DNA of 64,000 nt from Sitta carolinensis (lineage: Eukaryota > Chordata > Aves > Passeriformes > Sittidae), in assembly GCA_032173965.1 (NCBI GenBank), contig CM063312.1, positions 1,446,304-1,510,303 of the forward strand. Reading direction: 5' to 3'. A model generated the notes under the pieces. It was not told the DNA's origin. It was given only the letters and a program-made list of their open reading frames with translations, and made no database searches. The position numbers and the translations under genes are program-made. Below, piece after piece: positions 18,601 through 64,000 of this stretch. Numbering within the stretch: the stretch's first letter is position 1; each line of letters opens with the position of its first letter.

Positions 18601-21348
18601 CCCTAAATCCCCCCTAGAGCCCCCTGCATGCCCTAAGACCACCCCCCCCTGTGCAATCCCTAATGCCCCAGGCCCGCATGCCCTAAGACCCCCCTAAGCC
18701 CCCAAGCCCAACCCCACTGCTTGAGGTGGTCCACGGTGAGCGGCAGGTGCTGCAGGGTGAGCAGCAGCTGCTGCAGGAAGGGCACGTTGTTGGCAGCCTT
18801 GGAGCCCGTGAGCCACGTGTTGAGCAGCTTGTACCCCCCAATCCGGATGAACCTGGGGGGCAAAAACGGGAATTGTGGCCAGGGGGGTCCTGGGGGGCTG
18901 AGCCCCAGCACAAAGGCAAAAAAAACCCGAGGGAAATCCACCCAAAGATGAGGAAAATGGGGATTTTTGCGTGGTCGCGAAAATTTGCTGCTCCGTGGGA
19001 GGGGAGTGAGGGGGGAAAATTGGGAATTTTGTGCAGATTCAGGTGGGAAAAGCTAAAATCCATCTGAATTCACGTGAAATCCAAAAAAATCCTGGTCAAA
19101 ATCCACCTAAAATCAGCCAAAATCAATTAAAATCTGATTTTTTGTGTGATTGTGAAAATCTGCTGCTCTGTGGGAGGAGAGTGAGGGGGAAAAATTGGGA
19201 GTTTTGTGCAGATCCAGGTGGGAAAAGCTAAAATCCATCTGAATCTATACAAAATAAAAAAAAAATCCCAGTGAAAATAAAAAAAAAATCCACCAAAATC
19301 CAATTAAAATCTGATTTTTTGTGTGATTGTGGAAATCTGCTGCTCTGTGGGAGGAGAGTGAGGGGGAAAAATTGGGAATTTTGTGCAAATTCAGGTGGGA
19401 AAAGGGAAAATTCAGCAAAAATCCACCCCAAAGCCAAAAAAATCCTGGTCAAAATCCACCTAAAATCAGCTTAAATCCAATTAAAATCCACTTTTCTATG
19501 GGATTATTAAGCCAGGATGAATCTGAGGGAATAAAAATGGGAATTTTGTCCAAATCCAGGTGGGAAAAGCTAAAATCCATCTGAATTCACGTGAAATCCA
19601 AAAAAATCCTGGTCAAAATCCACCAAAATCCAGTTAAAATCCACTTTTCCATGGGATTACATAGTCAGGATAAATCTGAGGGGGATAAAATGGGAATTCT
19701 CTCAGGATCCAACTGAAAAATCCCCAAATCCAACCCAAAAATCCCAAAAAATTCACTCAAAATTCACTTTTCCATGGGATTACTTGCCCTGAACTGAAAA
19801 AAACCTGGGAATTCTCTCAGGATCCGACTGGAAAATCCCCAAATCCAACCCAAAAATCCCCAAAAATTCACTTAAAATCAACTAAAATCCACTTTTCCAT
19901 GGGATTACTTGTCCTGAACAAATCTAAACTGAAAAAACCTGGGAATTCTCTCAGGATCCGCCTGGAAAATCCCCAAATCCAACCCAAAAATCCCCAAAAA
20001 TTCACTTAAAATCAACTAAAATCCACTTTTCCATGGGATTACTTGCCCTGAACTGAAAAAAACCTGGGAATTCTCTCAGGATCCGACTGGAAAATCCCCA
20101 AATCCAACCCAAAAATCCCAAAAATTCACTTAAAATCAACTAAAATCCACTTTTCCATGGGATTACTTGTCCTGAACAAATCTAAACTGAAAAAACCTGG
20201 GAATTCTCTCAGGATCCGACTGGAAAAAGCCCCAAATCCCATCCAAATACACCCAAAAATCCCAAAAAATTCACTCAAAATCCACTTAAAATCCACTTTT
20301 CCCTGGGATTACTTGCCCTGAACTGAAAAAAACCTGGGAATTCTCTCAGGATCCGACTGGAAAATCCCCAAATCCAACCCAAAAATCCCCAAAAATTCAC
20401 TTAAAATCAACTAAAATCCACTTTTCCATGGGATTACTTGTCCTGAACAAATCTAAACTGAAAAAACCTGGGAATTCTCTCAGGATCCGACTGGAAAAAG
20501 CCCCAAATCCCATCCAAATACACCCAAAAATCCCAAAAAATTCACTCAAAATCCACTTAAAATCCACTTTTCCCTGGGATTACTTGCCCTGAACTGAAAA
20601 AAACCTGGGAATTCTCTCAGGATCCGACTGGAAAATCCCCAAATCCAACCCAAAAATCCCCAAAAATTCACTTAAAATCAACTAAAATCCACTTTTCCAT
20701 GGGATTACTTGCCCTGAACTGAAAAAAACCTGGGAATTCTCTCAGGATCCGACTGGAAAATCCCCAAATCCAACCCAAAAATCCCCAAAAATTCACTTAA
20801 AATCAACTAAAATCCACTTTTCCATGGGATTACTTGCCCTGAACTGAAAAAAACCTGGGAATTCTCTCAGGATGCGACTGGAAAATCCCCAAATCCAACC
20901 CAAAAATCCCCAAAAATTCACTTAAAATCAACTAAAATCCACTTTTCCATGGGATTACTTGCCCTGAACTGAAAAAAACCTGGGAATTCTCTCAGGATCC
21001 GACTGGAAAATCCCCCCAAATCGCCCAAATTCCCAAATTCCCAGGAGCTCACTTGGCCAGGATGTCCTGAGCCCGGGTCTGCAGGAGGATGTTCAGGTAA
21101 ATGCAGCGACTCACCATCTTCTGGGAATCCTTCATGAGGCTGTGGAGCAGCAATTAATCACAATTAATCACAATTAATCACAATTAATCAATGCCAGGGT
21201 CGGGCTGAGCTGCCCAGCTGGGAATTTTTTAGGGATTTCACCTGAAAATTTTGGAAATTCCATCCATGGTTTTGACCTCGCCATCCCTGCCCAGGAAACA
21301 ATCCAAGCCCTTGAGGAGCTCCTTGGGATCGATGGGGCCAGAGCCCAT
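618..21348 (-). CDS. PPP1R10: PPP1R10 (PNUTS), PP1 nuclear targeting subunit, 3'-partial
   Basis: Nuclear scaffold that targets protein phosphatase 1 and, in the PTW/PP1 complex with WDR82 and TOX4, acts in Pol II termination (family knowledge). Coding exons on the minus strand, in transcript order: 21348-21242, 21139-21053, 18852-18717, 15968-15917, 14350-14273, 11600-11430, 9239-9140, 7250-7141, 5941-5841, 4351-4207, 2920-2768, 864-618. They total 1,487 nt (495 codons plus 2) and all junction phases match. The start is fixed by [25 protein letters not shown] domain follows ([28 protein letters not shown]), then a basic linker ([20 protein letters not shown]), [31 protein letters not shown], the PP1-docking exon and [12 protein letters not shown]. 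The last exon stops after FLSKE plus two bases, so the C-terminal Gly-rich and CCCH parts are off the window. Two anomalies: a double frame slip in exon 2768-2920 and a donor lacking GT at 18717. Confidence 0.95.
955..2735. repeat. PPP1R10 intron minisatellite, second ACAAAATGG block
   Basis: Same family as 1-520: GGGTCACAAAATGGCGCCCA then CCACAAAATGGGGCCCAAA, with an inserted AAATCTTCAAAAA spacer in the later part. One copy at 1052-1062, AAAATGGCGGC, is a full YY1-type core. Confidence 0.85.
2768..2920 (-). CDS. PPP1R10: PPP1R10 exon with the PP1-docking segment, frame-slipped
   Basis: This exon should carry the RVxF-type PP1 motif of PNUTS. In one frame it reads [18 protein letters not shown] then DETEQ, almost identical to mammals. 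But the acceptor-side half ([18 protein letters not shown] then PAPRRPRKK) and the join to the next exon (VNVNKIKDF) lie in a different frame. Moving between them needs one base removed near 2836 (AAGAAGAATC on the minus strand) and one G added at the donor near 2768. The exon length, 153 nt, stays a multiple of three. Read straight through, the frame is open, but about 25 residues including the docking motif are replaced by unrelated sequence. Confidence 0.85.
2990..4185. repeat. PPP1R10 intron minisatellite, CCCACCCTAAACTGTCCCAA
   Basis: Units of about 22 bases with variants CCTCCCCAAAC and CCTCCATGAAATGTCC. C/A-rich on the plus strand, so the pre-mRNA is G/U-rich. Confidence 0.85.
4400..5830. 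repeat. PPP1R10 intron minisatellite, GGTCACAAAATGGC
   Basis: Begins as 18-base AAAATGGCCGCCAAAGAGGTC units (to about 4745), shifts to AAAAAGTCCACAAAATGGG units (to about 5350), then decays into non-periodic A-rich intron before the exon at 5841. Confidence 0.85.
5950..7135. repeat. PPP1R10 intron minisatellites
   Basis: CCAAATTTTCCCTAAAATGG units to about 6450, then CCAAAACCAACCCCAAAATG units mixed with ATGAAATCAGAAATG to about 7070. No exon inside. Confidence 0.8.
7265..9075. repeat. PPP1R10 intron minisatellite, ACCCTAAAACTG
   Basis: Units of 11-22 bases mixing CCCTAAAACTG, GAATAAAAAATGA and CCAAAAATGA. The CCCTAAA strings resemble some telomere repeats but are irregular, embedded in an intron and mixed with other units. 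Confidence 0.85.
9275..11425. repeat. PPP1R10 intron minisatellites (AAAGAGACACAAGAATTCCT; CCCCAAATCCCCAATTTCC)
   Basis: About 9,300-9,550 is a 19-base AAAGAGACACAAAAATTCCT repeat. About 9,600-11,420 is a dense CCCCCAAATCCCCAATTTCC repeat of 15-17 bases that stays open in two minus-strand frames for 650-700 codons. Confidence 0.85.
11625..14268. repeat. PPP1R10 intron G-rich minisatellites
   Basis: GGGGGAATATTGAGGAAATT units (11,640-13,790), then TTTTGGGGTGTTTTTGGGG units (13,790-14,265). G-rich on the plus strand, opposite to the array on the other side of exon 11430-11600. Confidence 0.85.
14365..15910. repeat. PPP1R10 intron repeats
   Basis: A short CCTTAATTAAT tract (14,372-14,430), then GGGGGTCTCAGGGAGGTTTT and GGGGGTCTCACTGGGATTTT units of about 27 bases to the exon at 15917. 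Confidence 0.85.
15985..18655. repeat. PPP1R10 intron C-rich minisatellites
   Basis: CCCCCTGAGCCCCCCTAAAG units (to 16,640) merge into CCCCTGTGTGCCCCTAAGAC and CCCTAGAGCCCCCTGCATGC units of roughly 30-60 bases. Strongly C-rich on the plus strand. Confidence 0.85.
18717..18852 (-). CDS. PPP1R10: PPP1R10 exon of the TFIIS-N (LW) domain, donor lacks GT
   Basis: Forty-five codons encode [13 protein letters not shown] to TVDHLKQ, the helical core that matches the mammalian LW/TFIIS-N domain. The acceptor (CCCCCCAG) and the phase (AA|G lysine shared with exon 21053-21139) are good. After the last codon CAG the genomic sequence reads TGGGG, where a donor GTGGGG would be expected, so a single G seems to be missing. 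Splicing at CA|GTGGGG would shift the frame into the next exon (AACAACACGG). Confidence 0.88.
18905..21030. repeat. PPP1R10 intron long-unit tandem repeats
   Basis: Two families. 18,960-19,700: about 180-190-base units marked by TGCTGCTCTGTGGGAGGAGA and CAGGTGGGAAAAGCTAAAAT. 19,700-21,010: about ten units of 125-140 bases marked by GGGAATTCTCTCAGGATCCG and ACTTTTCCATGGGATTACTT. They have longer units and higher identity than the surrounding minisatellites, so they probably spread recently. Confidence 0.85.
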
Positions 21349-36226: not shown

Positions 36227-47305
<11,079 letters not shown>

Positions 47306-48985: not shown

Positions 48986-51900
48986 ATGTACCGGCACGTC
49001 CGCGCCGCCATCACCGCCAGCGCCGCCGGGGTTCGACTCCGACCCGGCCGTGCCTGGGTCCCGGCGGCGGCGGCGGCTGCGGTGTCCGGGTCGGCCCCGC
49101 CGCGCCGGCGTTACCGAGCGCGGCCGCAGGTGAGGGGAGGGCGGGGGGGGGGGGGGGGGGGATAATGCTGGGATGGGCGTGATTATGGAAATAGAGGGGC
49201 GGGGTTATGGAAATTGGGGTGGGGATCATGCTGGGAGGGGCGGGGTTATGGAAATAGATGCGCGGAGTGGGCGTGGTTATGGAAATAGGGGTGGGGGTAA
49301 TGCTGGAGGGGCGGGGTTATGGAACTAGATGCGCGGAGTGGGCGGGGTTATGAATATAGGGGTGGGGTTATGGAAATAGATGCGCTGAGTGGGCGTGGTT
49401 ATGGAAATTGGCTAGGGATAACGCTGGGAGGGGCGGGGTTATGGAAATTGAGGTGGGTAATGCCGGGAGGGGCGGGGTTATGGAAATAGAGGTGCAGAAT
49501 GGGCGTGGTTATGCAAATCGGTAATTGGGGATAGCGGGTATGTAAATACAGATCGGTGTGTGGCCGGGGTTATGTAAATAGGGCGGGTGTTTAAAAATAA
49601 TAGCGGGTTATGTAAATTAATGGCTTTAATTGGTGCCGCTTTGCCGCTAGCGGGGCGTGGTTATGCAAATGAAGGGGGGTCCTGGTGGGAAGCAAATGGG
49701 GAAAAATCCTCCCAAAATGGGGAAAAATCCTCCCCAAGTCGGGCAAAATATTCCTAAAATGGTCCAAAGTATTCCCTCAATCAGGAAAATTCCCTTTGCT
49801 GTGGGGTAGGTCTCCTTTTCCATGCAGAAAGTCCTTGCAAAATGGGGCAAAATCCTCCCAAAATTAGGAAAATCCCCTTTTCCATGGGGTAAATTCCTCT
49901 AAAATTGGGAAAGTCCCCTTTCCCATGGGATAAATTCCCTTTTCCATGGGGTAAATCCCCCCTAAAATCAGGAATATCCTCTATTCCATGGGATAAATCC
50001 CCTTTCCCATGGGATAAATTCCCTTTTCCATGGGACCAATCCCCTTTAAATCAGGAATATCCCCTTTCCCATGGGATAAATCCCCTTTCCCATGGGGTAA
50101 ATTCCTCCAAAATCAGGAAAACCCCCCTTTCCCATGGGACCAATCCCCCTAAAATTAGGAATATCCCTTATTCCATGGGGTAAATCCCCCCCTAAAATCA
50201 GGGAAACCCACCCCAGAATCAGGAAAATCCCCTTTCCTATGGGACCAATCCCCCTAAAATCAGGAACATCCCCTTTTCCAGGGGTAAATCCTCTTTTCCA
50301 TGGGATCAATGCCCTTTAAATCAGGAACATCCTCTTTCTCATGGGGTAAATTCCCCCAAAATCGGGAATATTTCCTTTTCCATGGGACCAATCCCCTTTA
50401 AATCAGGAATATCCCCTATTCCATGGGATAAATCCCCTTTCTCATGGGATAAATCCCCTTTCCCATGGGATAAATTCCCTTTCCCAAGGGATAAATCTCC
50501 TTTCTCATGGGATAAATCCCCTTTCTCATGGGATAAATCCCCTTTCTCATGGGATAAATCCCCTTTCCCATAGGATAAATCCCCTTTCTCATGGGATAAA
50601 TCCCCTTTCCCATAGGATAAATCCCCTTTCTCATGGGATAAACCCCCCTAAAATGAGAAACCCCCCCCCCCCAATCACTAAATCCCCCCTTTCCCAGTCG
50701 CCACCCCCCCTTAAACCCCACCCCGGGGGGGTTCCCCTTCCTATCGCCGCCCCCTGCCCGAATCCCCCAGTTCCCAAATCCCCCCTGTTCCCGCGCAGGA
50801 CGCGGAGCCCCCCCAGGCGCTGGCGCTGCCCCCGCGGGGGCTGGCGGGGCTGGGCGGGCCCGTGACCACCGTGGACGGCAGAAGGGAGGATGACATCGCT
50901 GTCAGGGACCCCCCCCGGCTGCTGCTGGGCCCCCCCGCGCCGGGACCCCCGGGCCGGGCAGCCCCCGGGACCCCCCCCGGGACCCCCCCCGGGCGAGGGG
51001 CGCAGCCCCCCCCAGCATGGAGGAGCACCTGGCCAGGATGCACGAGAGGCTGCGGGGAGAGTGGGATGGGGGGATTGGAGGGATTTGGGGGGATTGGGGG
51101 GATTTGGGGGGGATTTGGGGGAGGAGCACCTGGCCAGGATGCACGAGAGGCTGCGGGGAGAGGTGGGATGGGGGGATTGGAGGGATTTGGGGGGATTGGG
51201 GGATTTGGGGGGATTTGGGGAGGAGCACCTGGCCAGGATGCACGAGAGGCTGCGGGAGAGTGGATGGGGGGGATTGGGGATTTGGGGGGGATTGGGGGGA
51301 TTTGGGGGGGATTGGGGGGATTTGGGGGGGATTTGGGGGGAGGAGCACCTGGCCAGGATGCACGAGAGGCTGCGGGGAGAGGTGGGATGGGGGATTGGAG
51401 GGATTTGGGGGTATGGGGATATGGGGGGACTGGGGGAATTTGGGGGGATGGGGGATTGGGGGGATATGGGGGGATTGGGGGGAAATGGGGGGTATGGGGG
51501 GATTTGGGGGGGATATGGGGGGATTTGGGGGGGATATGGGGGATTTGGGGGGAGGAGCACTGGCCAGGATGCACGAGAGGCTGCGGGGAGAGGTGGGATT
51601 GGGGGGGATTTGGGGGGTATGGGAGGATTGGGGGATATGGGGGGAAGGGGGGACATGGGGGAATTGGGGGGGGACAGGGGCACATGGGGGAGAGGTGAAA
51701 TGGGGAGGGGGGATCATGAGGGGTTGGGAGGATTGGCAAGGGAGGGGGACAATGGGGGGGGGGGACAAAGGGGGGGGGGTCACATGAGGAAGGGGGGGGG
51801 TGGGACAGGGTGGGGGAGGTGACAGCAGCAGGGGGAGGTGACAGCAGCCCCAGTGACCCCCCCTGTCCCCCCCCCCAGCTCCCCAATTTCTTCCTGAAGG

Positions 51901-53926
51901 TGCCGGACTACGGGCTGTACGCCCCCGACGTGGAGTTCCAGTGCCAGCACCTGCACCTGCACACACGGTGGGGACACTGGGGGGACACTGGGGACACTGG
52001 GAATGGGATACTGGGGACACTGGGGACACTGGGGGGACACTGGGGACACTGGGAATGGGATACTGGGGACACTGGGGGGACACTGGGGGACACTGGGAAT
52101 GGGATACTGGGGACACTGGGGTGAGTCAGTGCCAGCACCTGCACCTGCACACACGGTGGGGACACTGGGGGGGACACTGGGGACAATACTGGGGACAATA
52201 CTGGGGATACTGGGGACACTGGGGACACTGGGAATGGGATACTGGGGACACTGGGGGGATACTGGGGGGACACTGGGGACAGTACTGGGGATACTGGGAC
52301 AGCCCTGTCCCTGCAGGATGGCCCTGGGGAGGCAATAGGGGAGGTGACAGGGAGGTGACAGTGGGTGCCAGGGTGGCACAGGGAGGTGACACTGGGTGAC
52401 ACTGGGTGACAGGGTGGCACAGGGCTGTGCTTGGGTGGCTCAGGGTGGCACAGGGGTGGCACAGGGGTGGCACAGGGGTGGCTCAGGGTGGCACAGGGCA
52501 GTGACAGGGCCGTGCCAGGGCTGTGCCAGGGTGGCACAGGGTGGCTCAGGGTGGCTCAGGGTGGCACAGGGGTGGCTCAGGGTGGCTCAGGGTGGCACAG
52601 GGTGGCACAGGGGTGGCACAGGGTGGCACAGGGGTGGCACAGGGCAGTGACAGGGCCGTGCCCATCCCCCAGGGGCCGCGCCACCTACGCGCTGGCCGTG
52701 GCGCTGGCAGTGGGTGACACTGGGTGCCAGGGCTGTGCCGGGGTGGCACAGGGTGGCACAGGGTGGCACAGGGTGGCTCAGGGTGGCACAGGGGTGGCTC
52801 AGGGGTGGCTCAGGGTGGCACAGGGGTGGCTCAGGGTGGCACAGGGGTGGCTCAGGGTGGCACAGGGGTGGCTCAGGGTGGCACAGGGTGGCACAGGGGT
52901 GGCTCAGGGTGGCACAGGGGTGGCTCAGGGTGGCACAGGGGTGGCTCAGGGTGGCACAGGGGTGGCTCAGGGTGCACAGGGTGGCTCAGGGTGGCACAGG
53001 GTGGCTCAGGGGTGGCTCAGGGGTGGCTCAGGGTGGCACAGGGTGGCACAGGGGTGGCTCAGGGTGGCACAGGGTGGCTCAGGGTGGCACAGGGTGGCAC
53101 AGGGGTGGCACAGGTAGGTGACAGGGCCGTGCCCATCCCCCAGGGGCCGTGCCACCTACGCGCTGGCCGTGGCGCTGGCCCGGGCCCTGGCCTGGGTGTA
53201 CTTTGCCAGCCTGCGGCTGGAGGTGCTGGCGCTGACGCGGCACGCCGAGGACTGGAGCGTGCGGGCGCGCTGGAGAATCACGGGGCTGCCCCTGCACCTG
53301 CTGCTGCTGCGCTGGTACCGCCGGGACAAACGCACCCTGCTCAGGTGAGGCACTCACCTGGGTCACCGCCCGGCTCATCCCGGGGTGCCCATGTTGTACC
53401 TGGGTCACCTCCCTGTCACCTGTGCCACCCCCACCCACACCTGTCACCCATACCTGTGTCCCCTGTCACACCTGTCACCCCCACCCACACCTGTGCCACC
53501 TCCTGTGCCACCCCCATCATCCCTGTGTCCCCTGTCACACCTGTCACCCCCACCCACACCTGTGTCCCTTATCACACCTGTGCCACCCCCACCTGTGTCA
53601 CCTGTCACACCTGTGTCACCCCCACCCACACCTGTGTCACCCACACCTGTGCCACCCCCACCTGTGTCACACCTGTGCCCCCCCCGGGTCCCCCCCAGGT
53701 CCTACGACGCCTTCTCCACCTTCTTCCTCAACTCCCAGGGTCTCATCCGCTGCCACCGTGTGGACAAGGTGAGTCTGGGCACACCTGGGCACACCTGGGC
53801 TCCTCCCCAGGTGTGCCCTGACTCTGTGCCCCTCCCCCCCAGGTGATGCCAGCCCCCACAGCCGTCCCCGAGCCCAAGAAGCTGCTGGTGGCCGCGGCGC
53901 TGGCGGTGGCCCTGGCCCGGTCCTGA
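48986..53926 (+). CDS. C6orf136: C6orf136 orthologue (DUF2358-like), presequence-like N-terminus
   Basis: Function of the family is poorly known. Exons: 48986-49129, 50799-51061, 51879-51967, 53144-53344, 53699-53768, 53843-53926, about 283 residues. The first 48 residues (MYRHVRAAITASAAGVRLRP...) are rich in Arg and Ala with no acidic residue, as in mitochondrial presequences. A proline-rich linker (exon 2) follows, then the conserved domain: MEEHLARMHERLRGE, LPNFFLKVPDYGLYAPDVEF, YFASLRLEVLALTRHAEDW, RWRITGLPLHLLLLRWYRRD, YDAFSTFFLNSQGLI, and a C-terminal hydrophobic tail KKLLVAAALAVALARS. In exon 2 the frame from the acceptor does not reach MEEHLARM; one base is missing before 51017, probably in the C8 run, and the copy-1 donor (GAG|TGGG) also lacks a G. 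Exon 2's end and the start of exon 53144 are both copied in neighbouring arrays. Confidence 0.9.
49145..50650. repeat. C6orf136 intron 1 repeats
   Basis: 49,170-49,680: GGGGCGGGGTTATGGAAATA units of about 40 bases. 49,690-50,640: CCCCTTTCCCATGGGATAAA units of about 24 bases, many with an NcoI site. Confidence 0.85.
51017..51592 (+). repeat. Five copies of the C6orf136 exon 2 end within an intronic array
   Basis: About 42 bases coding EEHLARMHERLRGE recur at 51017-51061 (true exon end), 51121-51162, 51221-51260, 51341-51381 and 51553-51592, separated by GGGGGGATTTGG repeats. Copies 2, 4 and 5 keep a donor-like GAGAGGTGGG; copies 1 and 3 read GAGAGTGG; copy 5 lacks one C. None of copies 2-5 has a pyrimidine tract upstream, so they are unlikely to be separate exons, but their donors could extend exon 2. 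Confidence 0.85.
51600..53110. repeat. C6orf136 introns 2-3 minisatellites
   Basis: 51,600-51,850 GGGGGGATATGG/GGGGACA; 51,970-52,310 GGGGACACTGGGGACACTGG; 52,370-53,105 GGTGGCACAGGGGTGGCTCA, interrupted by the exon 4 copy at 52,664. Confidence 0.85.
52664..52712 (+). repeat. Partial upstream copy of C6orf136 exon 4 with its acceptor
   Basis: GTGCCCATCCCCCAG followed by GGGCCGCGCCACCTACGCGC and the next 20 bases matches the start of the true exon at 53144, then breaks into GTGGGTGACACTGG repeat. It sits 473 bases upstream of the true exon, with the GGTGGCACAGG array between them. Confidence 0.8.
53350..53690. repeat. C6orf136 intron 4 minisatellite
   Basis: CACACCTGTGTCACCCCCAC units, about 20-60 bases. 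Confidence 0.8.

Positions 53927-54103: not shown

Positions 54104-64000
<9,897 letters not shown>

Follow-up and report, generated by a model that had tools for sequence, protein, structure and literature searches.

In the stretch of DNA analysed here (64,000 nt; hereafter the window), blastn with a 51-nt query finds the 3′ end of a C6orf136 homolog's coding exon 2, together with its splice donor, five times in a G-rich intronic repeat. Ten further exon edges in the window are likewise copied, so exon 2 is one case of a regional process that has already been described: the copies match exon stuttering, reported from chicken (Hron et al., 2026, PMC12954441), and they occur here at an unusually high density. 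In the literature since 2015 we found the terms "sequence stuttering" and "exon stuttering" in that paper alone, whose main text names neither C6orf136 and DHX16 nor the MHC or passerines, the gene list being placed in its supplement. New here are the songbird-like MHC block, the high density, and two relatives in whose gene models the same edges are repeated.

Judged by its nearest relatives, the window is songbird-like bird sequence. It carries PPP1R10 on the minus strand (PDB match 9ci7, E 1.8e-78), ATAT1 on the plus strand (PDB match 4if5, E 8.4e-73), the C6orf136 homolog on the plus strand (PF10184; best named matches in Pseudopodoces and Cinclus), and the C-terminal part of DHX16 on the minus strand (matching human DHX16 residues 567-1041, E 1.7e-273), the last with 98% identity to several songbird models. 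The order PPP1R10(−), ATAT1(+), C6orf136(+), DHX16(−) is that of the duck MHC D-P block, which counts DHX16-C6ORF136-ATAT1-MRPS18B-PPP1R10 among its 12 genes and is reported to be almost lost, as a block, in chicken (PMC10845735). Tandem repeats make up 75% of the window according to Tandem Repeats Finder; one array in a PPP1R10 intron (19748-21015) consists of a 271-nt unit repeated 4.9 times with 94% matches by the same program, and is free of exon copies. Homologs place coding exon 2 of C6orf136 at 50799-51061 (plus strand, 263 nt as assembled), and blastn and homologs place exons 3 and 4 at 51879-51967 and 53144-53344 on the same strand. The introns flanking exon 2 measure 1669 and 817 nt.

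Identity between the query and the five edge copies is 94-100% (E 6e-17 to 5e-23). They start at 51020, 51121, 51220, 51340, and 51552, that is, at spacings of 101, 99, 120, and 212 nt. Copy 1 (51020-51069) is the true exon edge and the only one joined to the upstream exon body; it lacks one G at the junction, a loss that can be assigned to exon or intron and that leaves the GT in place. Copies 2 (51121-51171) and 4 (51340-51390) match the query in full. Copy 3 (51220-51267) has lost three single bases, a G each in the coding part, at the junction and in the intron part, and keeps its GT, while copy 5 (51552-51599) is one C short in the coding part and has a complete donor; all five lie on the plus strand. 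The donor context GAG/GTGGGA (slash at the junction) is whole in copies 2, 4, and 5, and an intron start like GTGGGATGG is present in every copy. Copies 2-5 start at GAGGAG after a G-run, without the ATG found before copy 1. The repeat unit comprises about 42 nt of exon and, for copies 1-3, 57-79 nt of intron, and is longer after copy 4. A preliminary description of this DNA had named the gene and exon correctly, as homologs and PF10184 confirm, and its five copies of exon end plus donor are borne out by blastn; the spacing it gave (85-210 bases) is near the measured one, and the array unit does include exon sequence and donor, to which the intron start has to be added.

We repeated the published exon-stuttering screen (blastn-short, at least 20 nt and at least 42.1 bits) on 35 coding exons of PPP1R10, ATAT1, C6orf136, and DHX16. 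Their borders were set by hand from reading frames, GT/AG and homologs, some of them guided by human protein sequences, and are uncertain by one or a few bases at the start of DHX16 exon D08, in PPP1R10 exons c, k, and l, and in ATAT1 exons 1 and 5; the start of D01 was left unset, and the annotation covers ATAT1 up to its sixth exon, with MRPS18B outside it. The screen returned 22 exon-edge copies at 11 of the 62 edges tested (seven donor-side, four acceptor-side), distributed over 10 of 31 introns. The copies contain junction-spanning sequence, and each of the 22 sits on the expected side of its exon, in the adjacent intron. In a search of the whole window the high-identity copies were on the same strand as their exon, with donor-side copies following it and acceptor-side copies preceding it. 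Among proximal matches 22 of 23 reached 42.1 bits, the remaining one being dropped, against none of four distal matches (maximum 32.2 bits). Three rounds with mononucleotide-shuffled introns gave a single match of at least 20 nt, at 18.3 bits, as opposed to 42.1-109 bits for the real matches, which excludes chance as the source of the 22 copies. Their exon part is 21-55 nt long (median 37), edges have 1-5 extra copies (median 1), and 18 of the 22 start no more than 1 nt from the hand-set border, the other four lying 3, 4, 5, and 13 nt away. A separate edit-distance scan of the introns, with 28 exon and 8 intron nucleotides of each edge, recovered the same 11 edges out of 62, again with 22 copies, at edit distances of 0-8 of 36. 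Low-identity matches (62-82%) of exons AT1, C1, C2, and C6, mostly in other places and one of them (C2, 81.8%, 33 nt) in the adjacent intron, were set aside, as was a resemblance of 27-32 nt (84-89%) between C6orf136 coding exons 4 and 6.

The copied edges are unevenly shared among the genes: copies are found in none of 11 introns of PPP1R10, one of five of ATAT1, two of five of C6orf136, and seven of 10 of DHX16. On the plus strand, the 3′ edge and donor of C6orf136 exon 3 recur at 52127-52168 (42/42 identical), the acceptor and 5′ edge of exon 4 were found by the screen at 52661-52708, and those of the ATAT1 exon at 39890-40004 (border set by hand) have a copy at 39712-39777. The DHX16 copies are on the minus strand. 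There, the 3′ edge and donor of D01 were copied to 63275-63341 and, in decayed form, to 63156-63201; the acceptor and 5′ edge of D03 occur again at 61269-61317, 61376-61424, and 61720-61766; and the 3′ edges and donors of D04 and D06 have one copy each, at 60032-60086 and 58542-58579. Both edges of D08 are affected, the acceptor and 5′ edge with a copy at 57456-57515 and the 3′ edge and donor with five copies within 56908-57224, the last of which carries a two-base insertion at the junction. Two copies of the 3′ edge and donor of D09 lie at 56402-56456 and 56248-56302.

Tandem repeats cover 0.72-0.95 of the 10 introns with edge copies. However, repeats cover 0.69-0.98 of every PPP1R10 intron except a single short one, yet none of its introns holds a copy, and the intron features tested do not account for the difference between genes. 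Stuttering and other introns were not clearly separated by GC content (p 0.09), repeat cover (p 0.55), sense G4 (p 0.81) or a C-run motif (p 0.04, uncorrected); intron length and skew gave no clear separation as predictors across the 31 introns, among which gene is a confounder.

These observations closely parallel those made in chicken, where exon stuttering was reported in 115 genes and 236 introns, 190 of the latter on dot chromosomes, a preference that is strong and not exclusive (PMC12954441). Here as there, a lateral part of the exon is copied with its splice donor or acceptor through the adjacent repeat-filled intron, copies are confined to proximal introns and stem from the exon border, and repeat cover is heavy; the published introns are heavily covered by simple repeats and vary in length within the species. 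The median exon part is 37 nt here and 36 nt in chicken (range 20-187), and four of the five sequence features of exon stuttering that we tested are present in the window. The two cases differ in that the share of copies stemming from within 1 nt of the border (18/22) is below the published value of more than 90%, and in that the median of one copy per edge, though inside the published range (1-44), is below the published median of four. They also differ in material, chicken in the published screen and genes of a songbird-like MHC D-P block in ours, and in density, with 10 of 31 introns in one chosen window compared with 190 of 5,572 annotated dot-chromosome introns. Expansions that the same authors noted in some further bird species appeared to them to be independent (PMC12954441). 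Two further systems share part of the picture. Intron gain by tandem duplication in potato RdRp also duplicates across an intron-exon boundary and doubles a splice site (PMC4974935), but the window copies lie inside existing introns with no new coding intron evident from the sequence, and the conceptual proteins align to their relatives without the need for one. The G-rich tandem-repeat introns that Beauclair et al. (2019, PMC6792250) described for GC-rich avian genes resemble those of the window, except that exon edges do not figure as part of the repeat in the description consulted.

Gene models of other birds provided a second view of the same edges. Among 111 C6orf136 homologs the exon 2 edge motif is found once in 96, not at all at the cut-off in 14, and three times in one, the Passerculus sandwichensis model P0031, which has three EEHLASMHERLRHE units at this edge. 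A second model from this sparrow, P0012, differs from P0031 by no more than a 47-residue gap and one residue in 308 aligned columns. The pair, two exon-edge copies apart, may represent a second locus, two alleles or differing predictions, and is at most suggestive of intron-length variation within the species. Since the unit of P0031 includes NPPSM, its breakpoint differs from that of the window. The Molothrus ater model P0091 repeats the start of C6orf136 exon 4, an edge also copied in the window, and copies in the DNA would underlie the protein models of both species. In the Chiroxiphia lanceolata model P0017, tandem GGPVTTVEGL-like units occur in the stretch that corresponds to coding exon 2; should this model be correct, the repeat grew within the exon and not at its edge. 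The C6orf136 model of the window itself departs from all compared models at residue 135 in exon 2 and at residues 170, 178, 184, 200, and 211 in exon 4, the departures at invariant positions including H135G, M170T, C178A, and G184V. Among the 120 DHX16 relatives listed of 7847 matches, many of them not birds, no repeated exon edges were found, and a multiple match of P0128 to the start of D07 was dismissed as chance resemblance.

Exon stuttering by local tandem duplication across the splice junction, with the exon-side junction kept, very probably offers the best explanation of the copies. Repeated local duplication would take place inside unstable, repeat-filled introns, with one breakpoint about 21-55 nt inside the exon and its partner in the intron; the duplicated unit would thus consist of exon edge, splice site and intron repeat. 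Because the junction on the side of the exon body would stay intact, such an event should be nearly neutral and persist, while duplications lying wholly within coding exons would mostly be purged by selection; edge copies would afterwards grow or shrink through slippage or unequal exchange. Under exon definition the spliceosome is expected to favour the junction beside the exon body, so that the mRNA would be normal and the extra sites used little if at all. As the donor of copy 1 is one G short as assembled, the argument for neutrality leans on a sequence error at that point. Replication stress with G-quadruplexes and meiotic misalignment have been suggested as causes (PMC12954441).

Could the array be a product of the assembly instead? 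Mis-assembly of unreadable G-rich sequence might create or inflate repeats, and the consensus does seem imperfect. As assembled, the start of C6orf136 exon 2 is in a different frame from EEHLARM, probably because one base is missing in a C-run, so that the sequence near copy 1 seems to lack two bases, this one and the junction G. DHX16 exons D02 (62188-62091) and D05 (59649-59486) are each read in two frames overlapping by one base, as if each lacked a base. We take these breaks for consensus errors, DHX16 being a conserved splicing helicase, and they make the fine details of frame unreliable in both genes; high error rates in stuttering introns were also met in chicken (PMC12954441). Nevertheless, an artefact would have to account for 22 copies at 11 edges of three genes with differing spacers and substitutions, and for gene models of two other species that repeat the same edges, and in chicken PHF8 the general structure was confirmed on raw nanopore reads (PMC12954441); we therefore regard it as extremely unlikely. 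A separate suggestion, made in the preliminary description, is that the copies serve as gene-conversion donors that rewrite the true exon edge. The private residues H135G, M170T, and C178A, at positions invariant in the compared models, do fall in captured edges of C6orf136. But in samples chosen by hand (20 of the 111 C6orf136 homologs and 12 of the 120 listed DHX16 proteins), deviant residues number 3/25 in captured edges and 7/142 elsewhere in C6orf136 (p 0.17), and 0/86 and 1/369 in DHX16, so that the suggestion found no significant excess in its favour and was rejected. Moreover, some D08 copies have I in place of the V encoded by the exon, and hence have not been imposed on it. Such conversion is very unlikely.

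The remaining alternative concerns use of the copies: distal donors would be spliced, exon 2 would end in a coding repeat of variable number, and protein length would vary. Extra donors could indeed alter exon length, as the preliminary description proposed from the sequence. None of the four C2 extensions to distal donors contains a stop codon, and in the present assembly the 531-nt extension that reaches copy 5 keeps the frame. Were the G lacking from copy 1 a sequence error, the spacings of copies 1-4 would become 102, 99, and 120 nt, each divisible by three (chance about 1/27). The Passerculus pair points the same way, one model reading three copies in frame and its near-identical partner one, although the former may be a prediction unsupported by RNA, and the motif is single in the great majority of the homologs. 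In the assembly as it stands, however, the other three C2 extensions are out of frame, stops occur in all extensions of C3, D08, and D09, and of the 15 donor extensions checked, among 16 donor copies in total, only three are both in frame and free of stops. Published minigenes also favour the exon-side donor: with two identical strong donors and 365-nt flanking introns the upstream one was used exclusively, and with weak identical donors the preference was kept in smaller exons while two larger exons were mostly skipped; short flanking introns, in contrast, favour the donor nearest the 3′ site (PMC9225289). The donors of the window copies are not consensus. Given introns of 1669 and 817 nt around exon 2, the minigene rule predicts copy 1 as the donor used. 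We consider it unlikely that distal donors are used, and give equally little credence to the wider proposal that stuttered edges are used throughout, as an in-frame end of songbird C6orf136 exon 2 varying in copy number and as decoy junctions in seven of 10 DHX16 introns.

Exon stuttering in this window adds a detailed case from a bird other than chicken, in an MHC block that chicken is reported to have almost lost, with DHX16 as a dense example. As the same edges are repeated in gene models of two other songbirds, a comparison of hot spots becomes possible, and the models carry a warning that gene predictors can merge edge copies into false protein repeats. Near-identical splice sites placed at varied distances mean that cDNA could test the rules of splice-site proximity in nature. 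Should the stuttered edges be used after all, the block would amount to a set of natural experiments in splice-site duplication, accompanied by polymorphism in protein length, in which competing identical donors would set the end of C6orf136 exon 2, and one of whose genes, DHX16, is itself a splicing helicase.
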